From: Sipunculus nudus
Lineage: Eukaryota; Annelida; Sipuncula; Golfingiida; Sipunculidae
Assembly: GCA_026874595.1 (NCBI GenBank)
Contig: CM049306.1
Span: forward strand, 80,688,142-80,752,141
DNA length: 64,000 bases
Direction: 5' to 3'
Shown: piece by piece, positions 36,193-56,522 of the stretch
Layout: each line of letters starts with the position of its first letter
How positions within the stretch are numbered: position 1 is the stretch's first letter
Notes under the pieces: generated by a model
What the model was told of the DNA's origin: nothing
What the model saw: only the letters and a program-made list of their open reading frames with translations
Database searches by the model: none
Translations under genes and position numbers: made by a program

Positions 36193-36247
<55 letters not shown>

Positions 36248-36388
36248 GTCTCTCTCTCACACAGGGATTTCACAAGCTGAGGTCATACGGTGATCATTAT
36301 GTGATATCACTCTGATCGCTCTCTGTCTCTCACACAGGGATATCACATGCTGAGGTCACACGGTGATCATTATGTGATATCACTCTGA

Positions 36389-36419
<31 letters not shown>

Positions 36420-36497
36420 GTCTCTCTCTCACACAGGGATTTCACATGCTGAGGTCACACGGTGATCATTAAGTGATATCACTCTGATCTCTCTCTC

Positions 36498-36540
<43 letters not shown>

Positions 36541-36665
36541 GGGATTTCACATGTTGAGGTCATACGGTGATCATTATGTGATATCACTATGATCCGTCTC
36601 TCCCTCTCACACACAGGGATTTCACATGCTGAGGTCACACGGTGATCATTATGTGATATCACTCT

Positions 36666-36714
<49 letters not shown>

Positions 36715-36930
36715 GGGATTTCACATGCTGAGGTCACACGTTGATCATTATGTGATGTCATTGTGATCCCTCTCTCTCTCACACACAGGGAAATCACATG
36801 CTGAGGTCACACGGTGATCATTATTTGATATCACGCTGATTCCCCCCCCCGCTCACAGAGATATCACATATTGAGGTCACAGGTGATCATTATGTGATAT
36901 CACTGTGATCCCTCTCTCTCTCTCTCTCAC
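36139..36930. repeat. Right inverted satellite block
   Basis: About nine units, each CACAGGGATnTCACATGCTGAGGTCACACGGTGATCATTATGTGATATCACTcTGATC followed by a (CT)n run of varying length (anchors near 36141, 36261, 36336, 36432, 36537, 36614, 36712, 36785, 36853). It is the reverse complement of the block at 33.7-34.17 kb. Together they bracket 34.2-36.1 kb like long satellite-type terminal inverted repeats. Confidence 0.88.
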
Positions 36931-41329: not shown

Positions 41330-43950
41330 TACATTGTCTCTCCCTTTAATGTACCTGATTTCAAGATTTTAATCCATCTAAAAAATCTTTGGTTTTTACA
41401 CTTAACTTTTTCATGAGGGGTTTGTGATCACTGAAGACAATGATAGGTTTGACTGATGAAGAAACATAAACTTCAAAATGTCGCAGTGCCAAAATCAAAG
41501 AAAACTTTTTTTTTCAATAGTGGAGTAGTTTGTCTGGTTTGCATTAAACTTTCTTGAAAAACAACAAATTGGATGATCTATGTCATCACTGCATTCTTTT
41601 AACAACACAGCACCAGCAGCAGTATCACTTGCAAATACAGCTCACTGATAGGGTACAAAAAAGTCTGGAGCTGCTAAAACTGGAGAACTTTGCCGAATTG
41701 CTTTTAAATTTTGAAATGCATTTTCACACTGAACATTCAATACAGACTTTTGTTTCTTTTTTAACAAATTAGTCAAAGGTTCAGCTACAGCAGAAAAATT
41801 TGAACAAAACTTCCTGTGGTATCCAAACATACCAAGAAAACGCATTATTTGCTTATTGTTTTCTGGTCTAGTAAATGGAGAAATAGCACTTATTTTAGCA
41901 TCAACAGGTTTTACTTGACCCTGCCCTACAATATGACCCAACAATGTTACTTGTGCATGAAAAAGTCAGATTTGACTAAGTTGACGATCAGACATGAGTC
42001 TTTCGAAGGGGTCGCGAAAAATTAGCAGATGTTTCTCCCAGGTGTCGCTGTACATGATGAGGTCATCAATATATGCGTCGCGCCCTGAATGTCCTTGACA
42101 ACCATATGGATGAGGCGCTGGTACCTGGCTGGCGAGTTCTTTATGCCAAACGGCATAACTTGATACTGGTACAGTCCTTGCAGCGTCACGAATACGTACA
42201 CTTCTTTCGCTCGTTCTGTCAGCGGAACTTGCCAAAATTCTTTTAGCAAGTCAAACTTGGAGAACGGGAACGTGTCAGTCTTGGTGACAGAGTTCAGTTT
42301 TCGATAATCTGTGCACATACAGTAACTTCTATTAGGTTTAGGCACAATAATACATGGTGAACTCCAGTTACTGTTACCAGGTCCAATAAAATCATTGTCG
42401 AGCAAATACTGAACCTTATCTTGTAGATACTTTTGCTTTACTGGATTCAGTCTATGGGGATGCTGTTTGACTGCGCTCGCCTTGCCAACATCGACGTCAT
42501 TGCATAATATATTAGTTTGCGTTGGAATGTCAACAAATGTCCATATTTCTGCAGCAGGTACTTGAGGTCTGGTTGTGGCAGTGCGGTGAGGTGTGACAGT
42601 TTGGCATCCAGGTTGTTAAGCACGATTGAGTTTTTTAGTGGTAGTGTTCCACACTGAATGTCTGCAGCACACTTACGATCAGTATCTACTTTTACTAGGC
42701 CAGGGTCAGTTTTTACACAATTAACAGGAGTATTATTATGTACAAGATCTGATGTGCTATTTCTGTCATGATATGGTTTCAACATGTGAACATGGCACAG
42801 TTGTTTTTTTCTTACGCCTATCTGGTGTTGACAGTATGTAATTTAAATCACTGACTTTCTTGTCAACAATGTAAGGACCAAATACCTAGCTTGCAGAGAT
42901 CTGCCAGGGATGGGTAGTAAGGCAAGGACCTTTTCACCAGGCTCAAACGATCTACCTACAGTGTGCTTGTCATACTTTGTTTTCATTTTACTTTGTGCAG
43001 ATTTAGATTAGAGTTTGCAATCTCACAAGTATTTTGTAGTTTAATGCAAAAGTATGAGACATACTGCAATAAACTAAAAGAGATCTGGATTTTCACACAA
43101 GAATGTTTCTTTAAGCAGTTTTAATGGACCTCCAACTGAGTGTCCAATAAACTAGTTCAAAGGGACTGAAACCCAAGTATTTAAAAGGATTCTCTGACAG
43201 CAAACAGCAATAGTTAGATTCCTTCATCCCAGTCTTTCTGTGTGTCATACCAATAGGTCCCAATCATGTTTTTTAATGTCTGATGAAAACGCTCGAGGGC
43301 GACCTGACTTTCAGGATGGTATGGCGAAGAGCTGTACTTTTTTATACCTAGCTCAAGTATAACTTGCTGGAATAAGCCAGACATAAAATTAGACCCTTCA
43401 GACTGGTACGGTTTTGGTAATCCAAACATTGTTAAAACTTAGTCAGAGCCTTAACAACATTACTGGCATTAATTTTGCGCAAGGGTATTGCCTCAGGAAA
43501 CCTCGTAGATGCGCACATAATTGTCAGCAAGTATTCATGTTCAGATTTTGTTTTGGAACTAAACGGTTCCTTGAAAACAGGAATAGGCCTAAGTGTGGCT
43601 TTCCTACCATTTGGCATGTGTGGCATGATTTACAATATTGTACAACATCAGTCCTGGGGTTAGGCCAATAGAAGTGTGTACTAACTTTCTGATAAGTTTT
43701 ATTTATACCTAAATGACCAGACAAAGGAGCCTCATGTGCCATGCTTAGAATTTCATTGCGATAGCTTTTGGGCACAACTATTTGATGTTTGATGGCCCAC
43801 TCATCATCAGCGCATACATCAGGTGGTCGCCATAAACGCATAAGCACTCCATTTTTAACATAGAAACAACATTTAAAGGGGGTTCTGTGACAGTTCGTCT
43901 TTAGAAAATGCTCCTGGGAAACAAACATGAAAAATCAGGGTCCTAATGCT
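41330..43950 (-). pseudogene. Broken pol of the minus-strand GMR1-like element
   Basis: Integrase zinc domain: MAHEAPLSGHLGINKTY (43.7 kb) and CKSCHTCQ give the HHCC pattern. Core: FPEAIPLRKINASNVVKAL, then SEGSNFMSGLF, where Gln follows the catalytic region poorly (the usual SDQGS is SEGS), then YHPESQVALERFHQTL with the catalytic Glu. RT: NWSSPCIIVPKPNRSY, TDYRKLNSV, a deletion of about 15 residues before SKFDLLKEFWQVPL, MPFGIKNSPARYQRL, and YIDDLIMYSDTW in another frame (about 42060). Thumb: LGHIVGQGQVKPVD, FLGMFGYHRKFCSNF. RNase H remnants follow to about 41330. Several frameshifts; not functional. Confidence 0.8.
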
Positions 43951-46694: not shown

Positions 46695-46895
46695 ATGGAC
46701 GCAGAGGAATTCCGCAAACGAGGCAAAGAGATGGTGGATTATGTTGCTGACTACCTGGAGAACATCAGGGATCACCGAGTACTTCCGGCCGTTCAGCCGG
46801 GATACTTACCCAGAATGATCCCTGACCACGCCCCGGAAGTACCCGAGCGCTGGGAGGATCTGATGGCGGACTTTGAAAGGGTTATCATGCCGGGG
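46695..46895 (+). CDS. Ddc: Aromatic L-amino acid decarboxylase, coding exon 1
   Basis: 67 codons, ending GGG before GTACGT (phase 0). It starts MDAEEFRKRGKEMVDYVAD and ends with the conserved IMPG turn. This is the N-terminal arm and linker that interlocks the two subunits of the dimeric enzyme. Family members begin the same way (EFRRRGKEMVDY in vertebrate AADC), which fixes the start. The enzyme removes CO2 from L-dopa, 5-hydroxytryptophan and related aromatic amino acids using PLP, in the cytosol, to make dopamine and serotonin. Sequence class (histidine or tyrosine decarboxylase being the alternatives) is decided by later exons, which are AADC-like. Confidence 0.93.
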
Positions 46896-47896
46896 GTACG
46901 TCCAAGTCAACAATAATAAGATAAAGCATCATAAATTGCCAACGTACTTATTAATCCAAACTTATGACCAGTGTATTTATATTTTTTTAACTACAGGTCA
47001 CTTAAACCATCGTTTTATAAATAATTACATGACGTTTTATTCAAATTAACCCATCGTTCATCTCAAGAGTTTAGTCATTTGTTATCGGTATGGGTTCCAG
47101 CAATTATAAGATGACTCCTTTTAACCTTTTGAATCAAGGATAGCTTGGTTCATTACAAGTCATTATTATGAGGTTCATCCTTAATAAATCCATTACATAA
47201 TAGGTAAAATATTTTAGTGTTATATGTTGAAGGCTGGATATCTTTTGATGACTCTATAGTTAATCAGTTGTATCGTAATCAGTATTAAAATGCTCATTAA
47301 TGTATAAATTATATACAAATATATAATATTAATATATACTAGTGTATAAAGGCATTCAATTATAATGCATATTTATATGTATTTTGATCGTGTGTCCATG
47401 TTCGCACACCGTTTCTTCCCCCTCCTCTGAAGATCACTCACTAAAAGCAGCCTCACTTTCACGCCCACTTTCTGGCACTACCGTCTTATCCCGCCATATG
47501 GCGGACCTGCTCTCCGAGTCTATCAGCTGTGTCGGCTTTACCTGGGTATAAAGCACCTCTCATCACATCAGAATATTTATTATTAATATGACAAAATATG
47601 GTCATACTGCCAGTCTTTGGGAAAACGTTTCACAAATGATACGGAGAGTTGCTGCCTTCGCCTTAATTGATCCAAGTCCTTGTATTACGTTGGGAACAAA
47701 ACTACTAATTTAGTGACTTGCCTGAAATCCATGGGGTGGGGTCCACACTCTAGGCCCATTCTTTCTGGATACCCTTTACTGTTTTCGGATTCCCGTAACA
47801 CCTTCCGTTTTACCTCAACTCTATCCGGATAACCTCAACTCCTTCCGGATAACTGCATTCTGCATACATCACACATATTCATGTTTTTAATTCCAG
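46896..47896 (+). other. Ddc: Ddc intron 1
   Basis: GT to AG, phase 0. Contains the decayed duplicate of exon 2 at 47433-47545. Between it and exon 2 there is a short CCGGATAACCTCAACT tandem (47810-47860). Confidence 0.8.
47433..47545 (+). pseudogene. Relic duplicate of Ddc exon 2
   Basis: 113 bases between CTCTGAAG and GTATAA, against 114 for real exon 2. It reads ITH, a TAA stop where exon 2 has Trp, then PHFHAHF and SYPA. After a one-base deletion it continues MADLLSESISCVGFTW, matching [15 protein letters not shown]. Both splice-site positions align with those of exon 2. One stop and one frameshift show it cannot be used. It records a tandem duplication of exon 2 early in the history of this gene. 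Confidence 0.78.
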
Positions 47897-48010
47897 GTGA
47901 CTCACTGGTTTAGCCCGCAGTTTCACGCCTACTTTCCGATAGCTAACTCGTATCCAGCCATCTGTGCCGACATACTGTCTGAAGCCATTGGTTGTATGGG
48001 GTTCTCATGG
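47897..48010 (+). CDS. Ddc: Ddc coding exon 2
   Basis: 38 codons in phase 0-0 after TTCCAG and before [20 protein letters not shown] is followed by [21 protein letters not shown]. This segment lines the substrate pocket. At the position of human Thr82 (FPT) this enzyme has Ile (FPIANSYPA), and at human His72 it has Phe; human Phe103 (GF) is kept. Thr82 is reported to contact the catechol ring in the inhibitor complex, so ring preference may differ. That is inference from motif alignment by eye. Confidence 0.92.
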
Positions 48011-49380: not shown

Positions 49381-50281
49381 CACACATGTTTTCCTATAAA
49401 TTTAGTACAATGAAAATATCGCATAACGTATCATGATACGCTACAACATATCGCAGTATATTGCAATACGAAATTTGCGGGCCATAACCAGCCCTGTTTT
49501 TTAATTGTTGATATTTTTGCGTACTGGTTGATACATGTCTGTGCGTTTAATTATGTTGCTTTATGAAGTGAGGTCATACAGGTCAGTAAGACAAAGAAGG
49601 TGGAGTTAAACAGGCCAGTGAGACAAAGGAGGTGGAGTAATACAGATCAGTGAGACAAAGGAGGTGGAGTCATACAGGGCAGGATTAGACAAAGGAGGTG
49701 GGGTTAATCAGGTAGGTAAGATGAAGGCGGTGAGGTCATACAGGTCAGTTAGACAAAGGAGGCTGAGTTAAACAGGTCATCGAGAGAAAGGAGGTGGAGT
49801 CATACAGGTCAGTGAGACAAAGGAGGTGGAGTCATACAGGTCAGTGAGACAAAAGGAGGTGGAGTGCGACAAAGGATATGGAGTCATACAGGTCAGTGAG
49901 ACAAAGGAGGTGGAGTCATACAGGTCAGTAAGACAAAGGAGGTGGAGTCATACAGGTCAGTGACACTAAGGAGTTGGGGTCATTTGGTCACTGTGTCATA
50001 CGAGATGGAACCATACAGGTCAGTGAGACAAAGAAAGGGGAGCTATACAGGTCAATGTAACAAAGGAGGAGCCATAGAGGTCATTGAGACAAAGGTGGAG
50101 GAAGCATACAGGTCATTAAGGGAAAGGGGGTGGAGTCATACAGGTCAGTTAGATAATGGAGGTTCAGCCATACAGGTCAGTGAGACAAAGTTGGTTGAGT
50201 TATACAGGTCAGTAAGACAAATTATATCATGTGTAACATATACTCAGTCGATTGTGTTTAATGATATATCTCTAAACATAG
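48011..50281 (+). other. Ddc: Ddc intron 2 (up to exon copy 3a)
   Basis: Starts GTAAGA. Holds a hAT-like MITE (48965-49496), a (TA)n run and, from 49569, the 32-bp minisatellite. If copy 3b is the one used, the intron extends to 51367. Confidence 0.7.
48965..49496. mobile_element. hAT-like non-autonomous element
   Basis: Ends CAGGGCTG ... CAGCCCTG are perfect 8-bp inverted repeats 532 bp apart. Inside both ends are runs of ATCGATATATCG and CGATACG/CGTATCG-type sequence typical of the CAGGGCTGTGCGATA class. It includes a (TA)n run (49327-49379). The flanking 8-mers (TTATTTAT and TTTTTTAA) are not a convincing target duplication. Confidence 0.6.
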
Positions 50282-50395
50282 ATGGCCAACCCGGCGTGTA
50301 CTGAACTCGAGGTTGTGATGAAAGACTGGCTCGGCAAGATGTTAAATCTACCGCACGACTTCTTGTCGGGAGGCAAAAGAGGTGTAGTCATACAG
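50282..50395 (+). CDS. Ddc: Ddc exon 3, copy a
   Basis: 38 codons, phase 0-0, acceptor ACATAG and donor GTCAGT. It encodes [13 protein letters not shown], then [17 protein letters not shown]. It differs from the family pattern at three places where copies b and c agree with it: Met to Lys before DWLGKM, and the glycine triplet before VIQ reads KRGVVIQ rather than KGGGVIQ. It is the most divergent copy and probably not the preferred exon. Including two copies in one mRNA would keep the frame but repeat 38 residues in the fold. Confidence 0.75.
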
Positions 50396-51367
50396 GTCAG
50401 TAAGCCAAAGGAGGTGGAGCCATACAGGTCAGTGAGACAAAGGGTGCGGAGTCATACAGGTCAGTGAGACAAAGGAGGTAGAATCATTCAGGTCAGTGAG
50501 ACAAAGGAAGCGGATTCAATTAGATCATTGAGACAAAGGAGGTGGATTCATACAGGTCAGTGAGACAAAGGAGGGGGAGCCATACAGTTTAGTATTAGAC
50601 AAAGGGGGTGGAGTTAAACAGGTTAGTAAGATGAAAGAGGTGGGGTCATACAGGTAAGCATTGGACAAAGGAGGTGGAGTTAAACAGGTAAGTAAGATAA
50701 AGGAGGTTAGGTCATACAGATCAGTATGACAAAGAAGGTGGAGTTATACAGGTCAGTGAGACAACGGAGGTGGAGTCAAACAGGTCAGTAAGACAAAGGA
50801 GGTGGAGTTAAACAGGCCAGGGAGACAAAGAAGGTGGAGTAATACAGATCAGTGAGACAAAGGAGGTGGAGTCATACAGGTCAGTATAAGACAAAGGGGG
50901 TGGGGTTAATCAGTTTGGTAAGATAAAGGAGGTGAGGTCATACAGGTCAGTTAGACAAAGGAGGTTGAGTTAAAAAGGTCATTGAGAGAAAGCAGGTGGA
51001 GTCATACAGGTCAGTGAGACAAAGGAGGTGGAGTCATACAGGTCAGTGAGACTAAGGAGTTGGGGTCATTTGGTCACTGTGTCATACGAGATGGAATCAT
51101 ACAGGTCAGTGAGACAAAGAAGGTGGAGCTATACAGGTCAATGTAACAAAGGAGGAGCCATAGAGGTCATTGAGACAAAGGTTGAGGAAGCATTCAGGTC
51201 ATTAAGGGAAAGGGGGTGGAGTCATACAGGTCAGTTAGATAATGGAGGTTCAGCCATACAGGTCAGTGAGACAAAGTTGGTTGAGTTATACAGGTCAGTG
51301 AGACAAATTATATCATGTGTAACATATACTCAGTCGCTTGTGTTTAATGATATATCTCTAAACGTAG

Positions 51368-51481
51368 ATGGCCAACCCGGCGTGTACTGAACTCGAGGTT
51401 GTGATGATGGACTGGCTCGGCAAGATGTTAAATCTACCGCACGACTTCTTGTCGGGAGGCAAAGGAGGTGGAGTCATACAG
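51368..51481 (+). CDS. Ddc: Ddc exon 3, copy b (consensus copy)
   Basis: Same length, phases and splice sites (ACGTAG acceptor, CAG/GTCAGT donor). The peptide keeps [17 protein letters not shown] and GGGVIQ, all as in animal AADC enzymes, so of the three copies this is the best candidate for the functional exon. The segment contributes to the large PLP domain just ahead of the phosphate-binding GxASE turn encoded by exon 4. The acceptor tract is only weakly pyrimidine-rich in all copies. Confidence 0.87.
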
Positions 51482-52423
51482 GTCAGTAAGCCAAAGGAGG
51501 TGGAGCCATACAGGTCAGTGAGACAAAGGAGGTAGATTCATACAGATCAGTGAGACAAAGGAGGTAGAATCATTCAGGTCAGTGAGACAAAGGAAGCGGA
51601 TTCAATTAGATCATTGAGACAAAGGAGGTGGATTCATACAGATCAGTGAGACAAAGGAGTGGGAGTCATACAGTTCAGTATTAGACAAAGGGGGTGGAGT
51701 TAAACAGGTAAGTAAGATAAAGGAGGTGGAGTCATACAGGTAAGCATTGGACAAAGGAGGTGGAGTTAAACAGATAAGTAAGATATAAAGGAGGTTAGGT
51801 CATACAGGTCAGTAAGACAAAGAAGGTGGAGTTATACAGGTCAGTCAGACAACGGAGGTGGAGTCAAACAGGTCAGTAAGACAAAGGAGGTGGAGTTAAA
51901 CAGGCCAGTGAGACAAAGGAGGTGGAGTAATACAGATCAGTAAGACAAAGGAGGTGGAGTCATACAGGTCATTATTAGACAAAGGAGGTGGGGTTAATCA
52001 GGTAGGTAAGATAAAGGAGGTGAGTTCATACAGGTCAGTTAGACAAAGAAGGTTGAGTTAAACAGGTCATTGAGAGAAAGGAGGTGGAGTCATACAGGTC
52101 AGTGAGACTAAGGAGTTGGGGTCATTTGGTCACTGTGTCATACGACATGGAATCATACAGGTCAGTGAGACAAAGAAAGGGGAGCTATACAGTTCAATGT
52201 AACAAAGGAGGAGCCATAGAGGTCATTTAGACAAAGGTGGAGGAAGCATACAGGTCATTAAGGGAAAGGGGGTGGAGTCATACATGTCAGTTAGATAATG
52301 GAGGTTCAGCCATACAGGTCAGTGAGACAAAGTTGGTTGAGTTATACAGGTCAGTGAGACAAATTATATCATGTGTAACATATACTCAGTCGCTTGTGTT
52401 TAATGATATATCTCTAAACGTAG

Positions 52424-52537
52424 ATGGCCAATTCGGCGTGTACTGAACTCGAGGTTGTGATGATGGACTGGCTCGGCAAGATGTTAAATCTACCGCACGA
52501 CTTCTTGTCGGGAGGCAAAGGAGGTGGAGTCATACAG
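52424..52537 (+). CDS. Ddc: Ddc exon 3, copy c
   Basis: Identical in length and phase to the other copies. It keeps MMDWLGKM and GGGVIQ but has Ser for the conserved Pro ([10 protein letters not shown]), through CCG to TCG, plus a synonymous AAC to AAT. Close similarity of copies b and c, including flanks, points to a more recent duplication than that of copy a. Confidence 0.78.
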
Positions 52538-54646
52538 GTCAGTAAGCCAAAGGAGGTGGAGCCATACAGGTCAGTGAGACAAAGGGTGCGGAGTCATACA
52601 GGTCAGTGAGACAAAGGAGGTAGAATCATTCAGGTCAGTGAGACAAAGGAAGCCGATTCATACAGACCACTGTGTCATAGGAGAAGGAATCAAACAGGTC
52701 AGTGAGAGAAATTTGGTGGATGGAGTCGTACAGGTTAATGAGACAAATGAGGAGGAGTAGTACAGGTCAGTGAGACAAAGGAGATGGGGTCATACAGGTA
52801 AGTATTGGACAACGGAAGTGGAATTAAACAGGTAAGTAAGATAAAGGAGGTGGGTTCATACAGGTGAGTATTGGACAATTAAGGTGGAGTTAAACAGGTA
52901 AGTAAGATAAAGGCGGTTAGGTCGTACAGGTCAGTAAGACAAAGAAGGTGGGTTCATACAGGTAAGCATTGGAAAAAGGAGGTGGGGTTAAACAGGTTGG
53001 TATGATAAAGGAGGTGAAGTCATACAGGTCAGTTAGTCAAAGGAGGTGGAGTTAAACAGGTCATTGAGAGAAAGGAGGTAGAATCATTCAGGTCAGTGAG
53101 ACAAAGGAAGCGGATTCATACAGATCAATGTGTCATAGGAGGTGGAGTCATACAGATAAGTTAGATAAAGGAGGTGAGGTCATACAGGTCAGTAAGGCAA
53201 AGAAGGTGGAGTTAAACAGGTCAGTGAGACAAAGGAGGTAGAGTCATACAGATCATTGAGACAAAGGAGGTAGATTCATACAGGTCAGTGAGACAAAGGA
53301 GGGGGAGTCATACAGGTCAGTATTAGACAAAGGAGGTGCAGTTGAACAGGTAAGTAAGATAAAGGAGGTGGGGTCATACTGGTAAGCATTGGACAAAGGA
53401 GGTGAAGTTAAACAGGTAAGTAAGATAAAGAAAGTGAGGTCATACAGGTCAGTAAGAGAAAGAAGGTGGAGTTAAACAGGTCAGTGAGACAAAGGAGGTG
53501 GAGTAAAACAGATAAGTAAGAGAAAGGAGTTGGAGCTATACAGGTCAATGTAACAAAGGAGGAGTCATAGAGGTCATTGAGACAAAGTTGCAGGAAGCAT
53601 TCAGGTCACTAAGGGAAAGAGGGTGGAGTCATACAGGTCAGTAAGACAAAGGAGGTGGAGTCATACAGGTCAGTAAGAGAAAGGAGGTGGAGTCATTCAG
53701 GTCAGTGAGACAAAGAAGGTTGAGCTATACAGGTCAATGTAACAAAGGAGGAGTCAGAGAGATCATTGAGACAAAGTTGCAGGAAGCATACAGGTCACTA
53801 AGGGAAAGGGGGTGGAGTCATACAGGTCAGTAAGAGAAAAGAGATGGAGTCATACATGTCAGTGAGACAAAGAAGGTTGAGCTATATAGGTCAATGTAAC
53901 AAAGGGAAGTCATAGAGGTCATTGAGACAAAGTTGCAGGAAGTATACAGGTCACTAAGGGAAAGGGGGTGGAGTCATACAGGTCAATTAGATAATGGAGG
54001 TTCAGCCATACAGGTCAGTGAGACAAAGTTGGTGGAGTCATACAGGTCAGTGAGACAAATTACGTGGAGTCATACAGGTTGGAGAGACAAAGGTTGTGGA
54101 ATTGGCCACGAGGGCTGTTGCGCGAAGCAGGCGCCAATTGGGAATAAATGTAAGCCGGGCCGTGTAGATTGGATGGGCGAATTAGGACCTTACAGACCAG
54201 AAGTGGGTGTGACAAAGTATTGCTTTACAGTCTAGATGGGCAAATTATGAACATACAGGTTATAGTGAGGCAAGTAATTTGTAAAATCTGGAATTTAAAC
54301 GGAATTTTAATGAGCATTGAAAGTAAACTTTGATCAAAATTCTCTGTGATTCTCTGTGATGTCTCAGATGAAGGGACAGGTACAAAATATATATTGAAAA
54401 TGTATATTGTTGCTGGTTGGTTATCATTATTATTGAGTAGGTGAATAAATAAGCAATAACCCTAGAAATCGCCTTCATCTATAAACGCTGTGATTTATGA
54501 CGGGGTTAAATGTTCTGTATTTTTTCTTCTAAATGACTTAAATATACTTAACTTTTAGAACTGCACATCCATGAAGGATCTTCAAGAAATAATTGTTTTC
54601 ATGAATGTTTTCCCAAACGATTCCTTACTGTACCAAACCTTCAAAG

Positions 54647-54781
54647 GGAACAGCTAGTGAAGTTATACTTGTAACCATGCTGGGCGCCAGAAACCGGGTG
54701 CTGCGCGAGAATCGGGAAGAACTCAGGACGAAAGAAGACTCAGAAATCATGGGGAAGCTGGTAGCCTACTGCTCTGACCAG
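54647..54781 (+). CDS. Ddc: Ddc coding exon 4
   Basis: 45 codons, phase 0-0, after CAAAG and before GTACGT. GTASEVILVTMLGAR carries the Ala-Ser that holds the PLP phosphate (SASE in vertebrates, TASE here). The exon ends KLVAYCSDQ, leading into the His of exon 5. The last 24 bases resemble the unit of the minisatellite in the following intron. Confidence 0.93.
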
Positions 54782-55791
54782 GTACGTATTACTGAAAACT
54801 TAATGATATGACCAGGTGCGATCGGTGGAACTTCCTGTTGAACAACTAACCGTGCTACTTATGTTCCGTATAATTATTCTAAAACTAGGTTATCTTACAG
54901 CTTGTGCTTAAATTTGACAAGGTAACCTCTCAGCTGATTTATTCCTCTGACCAGATAACATGTCCGTTGGTAATCAAAGTAATATGTAAACCGGTCCATT
55001 CTCTGTTACCTTACGGTTTGCCCGCTGTTGTGTCCGGGTTATGCTCTATATGCATAGCCTCACAGCTGACAGTCTAATGCTCTGACAACATTACCGCACA
55101 GTTGGCAGTCTAATGCTCAGACAACTTAACCGTACAGCTTGCGGTCTAATGCTCAGACAACATAACAGTACATCTGGTGGTCTAATGATCTAAGTACATA
55201 TCATTACAACTGGTTATCTTATGCTCTGACGACATAACCTTATATCTGGCGGTCTAATGATCTGACGACATAATCTTACAGCTGGCTGTGTAATGCTCTT
55301 ATGACATAACCGTACAGCTGGAGGTATATTGCTCAGACGACATAACCGTATATCTTGGGATCTAATGCTCTGACGTCAAAACCGTTCAGGAAGAGGTCTA
55401 ATGCTCTTATAGCCTTACATTTTGAGGGTTTATGCTCTGACGACATTATCTTACAGCTGGCGGTCTAACGCTCTTATGACATAATCTTACAGCTGGCGGT
55501 CTAATGCTCTTATGACATAACCGTGCAGCTGGAGGTATATTGCTCAGACGACATAACCGTACATCTTGACGTCTAATGCTCTGACGTCAAAACCGTTCAG
55601 GAAGGGGTCTAACGCTCTTATGGCATAACCGTTCAGCTGAGGTCTAATGCTTTGACGACATAACCTTAGAACAGATAGTCTAATGCTCCGGCCACATGTT
55701 GTGATTTGATCAATAATACTACTACAACTACTACTACTGCTAATTATTATTATTATTATTATATTATTATTATTGGGTTAATTATCTGTAG
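54782..55791 (+). other. Ddc: Ddc intron 4
   Basis: GTACGT to CTGTAG, phase 0. Almost wholly occupied by the 36-bp minisatellite and its decayed edges, then a (TAT)n tract just before the acceptor. Confidence 0.8.
55045..55700 (+). repeat. 36-bp minisatellite resembling the exon 4 donor
   Basis: About 18 units of CGTACAGCTGGCGGTCTAAT + GCTCTGACGACATAAC. Exon 4 ends AAGCTGGTAGCCTACT + GCTCTGACCAG before GTACG. The shared pattern AGCTGG..G.CTA.TGCTCTGAC is in the same order and spacing, and the intron start aligns with the GACATAACCGTA part. A run of four variant unit types (GAGGTATATT, ATCTTG, TTCAGGAAG and a plain unit) occurs twice, so the array also has a higher-order repeat. Units are more diverged than in intron 3, so the array is older. 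Confidence 0.8.
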
Positions 55792-55935
55792 GCACACTCG
55801 TCAGTAGAACGAGCTGGTCTATTGGCGGCGATGAAAATCCATAAAGTTGAGAGCGATGAGAAATGCTGTATGCGAGGGGATGCTCTGGCTGACGCCATTA
55901 ACCAGGACAAACAACGAGGACTTGTACCATTTTAT
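55792..55935 (+). CDS. Ddc: Ddc coding exon 5
   Basis: 48 codons, phase 0-0. AHSSVERAGLLAAMK contains the histidine (human His192) that stacks on the PLP ring. The rest, with KCCMRGDALADAINQDKQ, is a helical part of the large domain and ends GLVPFY. Confidence 0.93.
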
Positions 55936-56455: not shown

Positions 56456-56522
56456 GCGGTTGCCACATTAGGTACCACGCCGTCCTGTGCCTTTGACAAG
56501 CTTAAAGAGATAGGACCTGTGT
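56456..56522 (+). CDS. Ddc: Ddc coding exon 6
   Basis: 22 codons plus one base (phase 0 in, 1 out, donor GTAAGT). AVATLGTTPSCAFDKLKEIGPV includes the ATLGTT strand whose Thr (human Thr246) lines the active site. Confidence 0.92.

Follow-up and report, generated by a model that had tools for sequence, protein, structure and literature searches.

Introduction

The closest described systems are the mirages of amphioxus, minisatellite-like tandem duplications of exon-intron boundaries in the Adh3, globin, troponin C and PGBD5 genes (PMC3087553, PMC3902484). According to the available parts of these papers, mirages occur at 5' or 3' boundaries, many of their units carry AG/GT, the unit measures 10-72 bp in Adh3 and 150-160 bp in the globins, and RT-PCR suggested that splicing was undisturbed. 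It was suggested that mirages might occur in cephalochordates generally (PMC3087553). In human segmental duplications, internal tandem repeats that lie at exon-intron boundaries average four units of 30 bp, and the available text ties them to novel introns with transcript support (PMC2812944). Earthworm metallothionein genes contain an intronic minisatellite, for which the available portion of the description states no exon-end origin (PMC12783039). Among the matches listed for the open-access literature, we found no exon-end donor array in a lophotrochozoan. The minisatellite of the human 6-16 gene (IFI6) reportedly gives multiple splice donors, to judge from the title of a 1995 report by Turri, which PMC2572611 and PMC2915984 cite.

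Here, we describe a minisatellite at the exon 3/intron 3 junction of a Ddc gene of Sipunculus nudus, contained in a 64,000-nucleotide stretch of DNA that we call the window. Like the mirages, it is a boundary-spanning minisatellite with AG/GT in many units. Unlike the mirages, as far as the available texts describe them, it has more than 100 units, is common to 13 paralogs, contains exon copies and has counterparts at several genes of one genome. It also differs in its host: no cephalochordate appeared among the 120 protein matches listed for Ddc, where Lineus and Capitella were the closest by identity (72%) of the named ones. The human boundary repeats resemble it in being minisatellites at exon-intron boundaries of recently duplicated gene families, but in the available text they are short, with about four units, whereas the Ddc array has 128. 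Its units also resemble the 6-16 minisatellite, going by that title, in carrying splice donor sites. While the 6-16 donors are reportedly used, RT-PCR gave hints on mirage splicing and the human repeats are tied to novel introns, the Ddc array is known from its sequence, and its copies are candidate donors.

Results

The unit of the array joins the end of exon 3 to the start of intron 3

The gene model and repeats of the window are given in Table 1. The 32-base array unit, CAAAGGAGGTGGAGTCATACAG/GTCAGTGAGA, consists of 22 bases from the end of Ddc exon 3 and 10 bases of intron 3, and the array lies in the orientation of the Ddc coding strand. Alignment to this junction identified 128 units with a mean identity of 0.85, counting units with at least 20 of 32 matches, and the consensus from unit decomposition was identical to the junction. 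The donor GT was intact in 105 of the 128 units, and 93 combined GT with at least 7 of 9 matches to CAGGTAAGT. As in a mirage, the tandem units span the exon-intron boundary and include an exon part, and many keep AG/GT (AGGT in 98/128). In an ungapped search, the 32-mer matched at most 22/32 bases outside the array.

These results bear out the preliminary description of this DNA, which had derived the unit from Ddc's own exon 3 end and 5' splice site, had seen room for well over 100 units and had placed the array in the transcribed orientation. It had also considered that the consensus might align to the exon 3 end no better than random sequence does. The exon 3 tail (-23 to -4, from exon 3 copy 3) matched the consensus at 19/20 bases, a score that none of 20,000 shuffles reached. 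The array is real, but TRF ends it at 54100, 175 bases before the end of the extent given there (49569..54275). A stop met on read-through in the third unit holds for exon 3 copies 1 and 3, but copy 2 stops in the second unit.

Table 1. Features of the Ddc gene and its repeats, in window positions.
Feature	Position	Strand	Basis and remarks
Ddc exon 1 (predicted, coding part)	46695..46895	+	By eye and ORF; end ATGCCGGGG/gtacgt
Degraded exon-2-like copy	47433..47549	+	tblastn: 41% identity, with stop; exon end matches in other frame
Ddc exon 2	47897..48010	+	tblastn with the window's own peptide
32-bp junction minisatellite	49573..54100	+	TRF, unit decomposition, donor counts; interrupted by 3 exon 3 copies
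Exon 3 copy 1	50282..50395	+	Versus copy 2: M14K, G33R, G35V
Exon 3 copy 2	51368..51481	+	Closest to sister paralog L009
Exon 3 copy 3	52424..52537	+	P4S
Ddc exon 4	54647..54781	+	tblastn; end CTGCTCTGACCAG/gtacgt
36-bp minisatellite, intron 4	55062..55665	+	TRF; alignment; shuffle tests
Ddc exon 5	55792..55935	+	tblastn; end by eye before gtagga
Ddc exon 6	56456..56522	+	tblastn; end by eye before gtaagt

According to tblastn and TRF, exon 3 is present three times within the array, each copy flanked by array on either side. Copy 2 differs from L009 at 9 of 186 bases, and the other two copies differ from it at 15 and 11. The array also contains higher-order repeats, of which h1 and h2 are 96% identical and h3 is about 80% identical to both. 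We infer that an exchange involving the array multiplied exon 3.

All sampled members of the expanded Ddc family carry the array

An exon 3 junction array was present in all 12 other copies of the expanded Ddc family that we fetched, giving 13/13 with the window, spread over three contigs; this sample leaves aside Ddc-like matches elsewhere on C4, C12, C14, C15, C16 and C131. The unit consensus equalled the exon 3 junction in each of the 12 (32/32 bases in 11 of them, 31/32 in L011). Thus, an array unlike exon 3 in a related intron, a case that the preliminary description had envisaged, was not seen among these paralogs. TRF placed the start of the array within exon 3 in 11 of the 12; the exception was L016, where the TRF arrays begin 119 bases into the intron. 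The diverged Ddc copy L021 had no array by TRF. Arrays ranged from 15 to 128 units, a difference between paralogs of one assembly that is distinct from length instability between haplotypes or in somatic cells. The most diverged array-bearing copy, L010 (74% nucleotide identity to the window), had 57 units, and TRF reported 60 copies with 96% matches and 0% indels in L011. Unit identity dropped unevenly with distance from exon 3, with p below 0.05 in 8/13 arrays (the others being L011, L016, L017, L018 and L019), and the drop is partly due to the threshold, which produces an edge effect.

A second array in intron 4 resembles the end of exon 4

The TRF unit of the intron 4 array matched the exon 4 end at 19/23 bases. 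The pooled consensus scored 30 against the exon 4 end (best of 5000 shuffles, 27), and an earlier form of the test gave 26 (best of 60 dinucleotide shuffles, 21). The donor is lost from the consensus. Against this, the scan of the window gave a less than overwhelming result for intron 4, since the 32-mer unit itself reached a score of 27 in an unrelated GA-rich region near 25.4 kb. Because a count of units with at least 21/36 matches did not discriminate, giving 19 in L021, where TRF found no array, our statements on intron 4 use TRF and the consensus tests. By these, intron 4 has a decayed second array that resembles the exon 4 end.

Two other repeats were considered and set aside. The 20-mer array upstream of exon 2 had a best score of 19 outside itself within 46-64 kb; we did not count it as a mirage because that score sits at neither the exon 1 nor the exon 2 end. 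In L012, the 234-base repeat of intron 6 did not match the exon 6 junction of that locus.

Unrelated genes carry arrays built from their own exon ends

A donor-triplet pattern found 17 distinct arrays among the matches listed from C1 to C7:75.04 Mb, versus 4 for the single control motif, the reversed one. Part of this excess is expected, because the pattern itself selects donors and true donors add CAGGTAAGT sites. The 5' edge was reached in 16 of the 17, the exception being C6:27.27 Mb (L055, L060), and 11 of these 16 start inside an exon-like open frame when the tail is compared with the consensus. The consensus was preferred to a comparison one period away, which scored 0 in L044 and L056, where adjacent units differ. 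The exon tail was not matched in L024, L035, L036 and L037 (6 to 10 of 20 bases), and the match in L059 reached only 10/20. Exons at these arrays gave protein matches to ABCC2 (E 9e-9), XPD (E 3.6e-7), thioredoxin (E 1.1e-10) and an SKAP-type PH domain (E 9e-4), and a DNA-PKcs-like exon has an acceptor-side array, too. Copy numbers by TRF were lowest in L028, with about 3, and reached at least 54 in L053, which is the same array as L059. Thus, several unrelated genes carry arrays built from their own exon ends.

Discussion

We propose that the window array is a mirage-type minisatellite that began as a junction duplication, grew, was inherited and is tolerated, and we give this explanation as a whole a probability of about 0.72. 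In our model, the ancestor from which the expanded Ddc family descends would have undergone a short tandem duplication across the exon 3/intron 3 junction. The array would then have grown by slippage and unequal exchange, as the higher-order repeats and the freshly homogenised paralog L011 suggest, and would have been carried along as Ddc multiplied, being present in every member examined. It may be tolerated because the exon keeps its first donor intact when a duplication spans the junction, and the copies would therefore normally fall within the intron. The same type of event appears, at the level of sequence, at exon 4 and at junctions of unrelated genes, and duplication with slippage or unequal exchange is the most likely origin of the genome's other junction arrays, too, which would likewise be tolerated through the survival of the first donor.

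The copied donors might instead be functional, binding U1 snRNP either to shield the long transcript or to tune Ddc splicing by competition with the true donor. Over the window and 13 loci, 470/600 units keep the donor GT (2 of these units belong to L021), and the array is found throughout the sampled family. In 362 distinct full units, a comparison restricted to ungapped, non-duplicate sequences, the donor GT was kept at 0.78, versus 0.68 and 0.71 for the unit's two other GTs; it was the better kept in 12/13 arrays (Wilcoxon p 0.013, the arrays not being independent). The nine donor columns of the window array averaged 0.91 versus 0.85 for the exon-derived columns. Plain neutrality does not predict this better retention. 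However, the donor columns were higher than the exon-derived ones in 7/13 arrays and lower in 6, roughly one donor GT in five is gone, and the intron 4 consensus has lost its donors. Evidence for selection on the copied donors is thus weak, and the decoy and U1-platform roles floated in the preliminary description found no direct support, the donor GT being only mildly better kept. We regard a function of this kind as quite improbable. A process specific to junctions, for example one coupled to transcription, R-loops or splicing, could make such arrays genome-wide in place of random minisatellite birth, and would be compatible with the model above. The excess of 17 arrays over 4 among the matches listed, the 11 of 16 that start at exon ends, the two affected junctions of Ddc and the acceptor-side array of the DNA-PKcs-like exon all point that way. 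On the other hand, the excess over one control motif is made larger by the search pattern and by the abundance of true donors, and the comparison covers arrays alone, not array-free junctions; we consider such a process unlikely.

As the AG/GT of each unit could serve as both acceptor and donor, the array might also provide raw material for the gain of introns or for recursive splicing. AGGT is frequent in the window units, human tandem-repeat genes are described in the available text as enriched in dual-specific AGGT sites (PMC10809524), and a potato intron arose from duplication of an intron-exon boundary (PMC4974935). The potato case, in the part available, likewise involves tandem copies containing AGGT, but the source of the Ddc array is an existing junction, and it is seen as an array, not as a new intron. 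Only 5 of the 13 bases before the unit's AG are pyrimidines, so use of this AG as an acceptor looks unlikely; the role in intron gain suggested earlier found no direct support here, and we think it very improbable. More speculatively, each unit ends in the exon tail and opens the same intron, so that an exon spliced to any unit's AG/GT would remake the original junction. Long introns could therefore be taken out step by step, with the arrays as self-restoring ladders and without cost to the coding sequence, and a junction-directed process would have produced such arrays at many genes of this genome. We view this reading as a long shot. Assemblies are error-prone at long tandem arrays, but an assembly artefact or chance resemblance is scarcely credible when the same junction unit recurs at 13 separate loci on three contigs, and the shuffle test of the exon 3 tail contradicts chance.

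In sum, the mirage-type structure, which the available texts describe from amphioxus genes, is seen here in 13 Ddc copies and at 11 other exon-like loci of one genome. These loci offer a natural experiment in how the splicing machinery chooses a single donor when dozens are near-identical. They also bear on whether donor arrays seed introns and on whether junctions are hot spots of minisatellite birth.

Results

An array built from the exon 3/intron 3 junction

The consensus of the 128 units in the window array, counted where at least 20 of 32 positions match the junction, is the Ddc exon 3/intron 3 junction itself, CAAAGGAGGTGGAGTCATACAG/GTCAGTGAGA, with a mean identity of 0.85. The donor GT is kept in 105 of these units, AGGT in 98, and GT plus at least seven of nine matches to CAGGTAAGT in 93. 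In addition, the tail (-23 to -4) of exon 3 copy 3, one of three exon 3 occurrences that tblastn placed inside the array, matched the consensus at 19/20 positions, which none of 20,000 shuffles equalled. These results, together with the 32-base unit called by TRF, bear out the preliminary description of an array with room for more than 100 units, each made of the exon's own end and donor. That description also placed a read-through stop in the third unit; here read-through ends in the second or third unit.

Features located in the window and at one array elsewhere in the genome
Feature	Position	Strand	Basis or remark
Tandem array of 32-base units	49573-54100	+ (coding strand of Ddc)	TRF
20-base repeat (CTCTTTCCGGATAACCTCAA or close) ahead of exon 2	47812-47853
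Decayed Ddc exon 2 copy, 5' of intact exon 2	47433-47549		stop and broken frame
Complex TC-rich repeat, units (TC)n-CACACAG-GG	36211-36924		acceptor-like by eye
Frames like those of a Ty3/gypsy-type retroelement pol	41361-43934	-	resemblance by eye
DNA-PKcs-like exon with arrays on both sides (L059)	C4:88724700-88725400	reverse

The Ddc gene lies on the + strand; tblastn with peptide queries taken from the window itself located exons 2 to 6, and exon 1 was placed by reading. Exon 3 copy 2 ends in the residues GKGGGVIQ. Relative to it, copy 1 carries M14K, G33R and G35V, and copy 3 carries P4S. The repeats starting at copies 1 and 2 are 96% identical to each other, and the one starting at copy 3 is about 80% identical to both. 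This pattern suggests that exon 3 multiplied through exchange involving the array, with copies 1 and 3 probably drifting. Among the best 120 of 7877 protein matches, the closest named by identity were Lineus and Capitella (72%), with insects up to 70% and one unnamed record at 74%; the top E-value belonged to a Haemonchus record (56% identity). The animal may be a lophotrochozoan.

The 20-base repeat ahead of exon 2 is also present in 11 other Ddc copies (L009, L011-L020). It is pyrimidine-rich, is long in several paralogs, and did not match the exon ends.

The array in the Ddc family

There are many Ddc-like matches across the genome. We sampled 12 further expanded copies, in regions over exons 2 to 5, plus a portion of one diverged copy, L021. 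The preliminary description had proposed the orthologous intron as a check; in paralogs, a near substitute, the junction-derived unit was present in 12/12, with 15 to 80 units each at the 20/32 threshold. The consensus equals the junction at 32/32 positions in 11 copies and at 31/32 in L011. TRF started the array inside exon 3 in 11/12, the exception being L016, where its arrays begin 119 bases into the intron and the first two intron units match at 26/32 and 24/32. The diverged L021 had no array by TRF and two units at 20/32. L010, at 74% nucleotide identity with the window the most diverged of the array-bearing copies, holds 57 units, and TRF described the L011 array as 60 copies with 96% matches and 0% indels. 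The presence of the array in every expanded copy examined, including L010, and the uniformity of L011 argue that it predates the spread of the sampled copies and was homogenised anew in at least one.

Intron 4 carries a second array, with a 36-base TRF unit that matches the exon 4 end at 19/23 bases. Outside the array, the exon 4 end is the unit's top match in the window (26 vs 21 for the next), a scan to be read with caution as the 32-mer unit scores 27 at an unrelated site near 25.4 kb. The pooled consensus, which is without donor bases, scored 30 against a shuffle maximum of 27 (n=5000); an earlier version of this test, run with 60 dinucleotide shuffles, scored 26 where the shuffles peaked at 21. 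TRF found this array in 10/12 other copies and did not find it in L010 or L011.

Possible constraint on the copied donors

Across 362 distinct full units the donor GT is intact in 0.78; the two remaining GTs of the unit are intact in 0.68 and 0.71. This excess is positive in 12/13 arrays (Wilcoxon p 0.013), which share ancestry. In 7/13 arrays the nine donor columns show higher conservation than the exon-derived columns, in 6/13 lower; the window averages are 0.91 and 0.85. The 13 bases ahead of the unit's AG include five pyrimidines. There may be mild constraint on the copied donors.

Arrays at other genes

A pattern of three CAGGTAAGT motifs separated by 10-40 bases matched 303 times genome-wide, compared with 132 for the reversed motif. 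Among the matches listed for contigs 1 to 7, as far as 75.04 Mb on the last, 17 distinct donor arrays stood against four control arrays. The 5' edge was reached for 16/17, and the 20 bases preceding the CAG of the first donor matched the array consensus at 15/20 or more in 10 of these 16. L044 matched at 11/20 ungapped and, by eye, well with a one-base indel. These 11 arrays sit at open-frame ends, and an acceptor-like AG ahead of the frame is plain in 9/11, L030 and L056 being the other two. The bases before the first donor did not match in L024, L035, L036 and L037. L059 is weak on its donor side (10/20); its acceptor-side array has units of ~39 bases, each with an acceptor and the exon's first bases, and its donor array lies 3' of the exon.

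Protein tests covered array exons other than those of L061 and L062. Single exons matched ABCC2 (E 9e-9; Pfam ABC_membrane under its cut-off), XPD (E 3.6e-7), a thioredoxin domain (E 1.1e-10) and a SKAP-type PH domain (E 9e-4; Pfam PH under its cut-off). Weaker matches were a permease family at L056 (E 0.003, under its cut-off), where a search for a related solved structure found none, and DNA-PKcs at L059 (all six matches, E 0.67). L026, L028, L034, L035 and L044 had no Pfam match, and L028 and L044 no solved-structure match.

COX1-family matches with long open frames occur on C60, C61, C62, C66, C72, C74, C75, C89 and C123. The one inspected, on C123 (L064), looks bacterial by eye, and the assembly may therefore contain bacterial contigs.

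Discussion

The Ddc arrays, known here from sequence, share the structural features of amphioxus mirages as set out in PMC3087553 and PMC3902484. Unlike mirages, they combine their copy number with a history shared by members of a gene family, copies of the exon enclosed in the array, and the appearance of such arrays at several genes of this genome. Because of these four differences, we propose that the Ddc arrays are a variant form of mirages.
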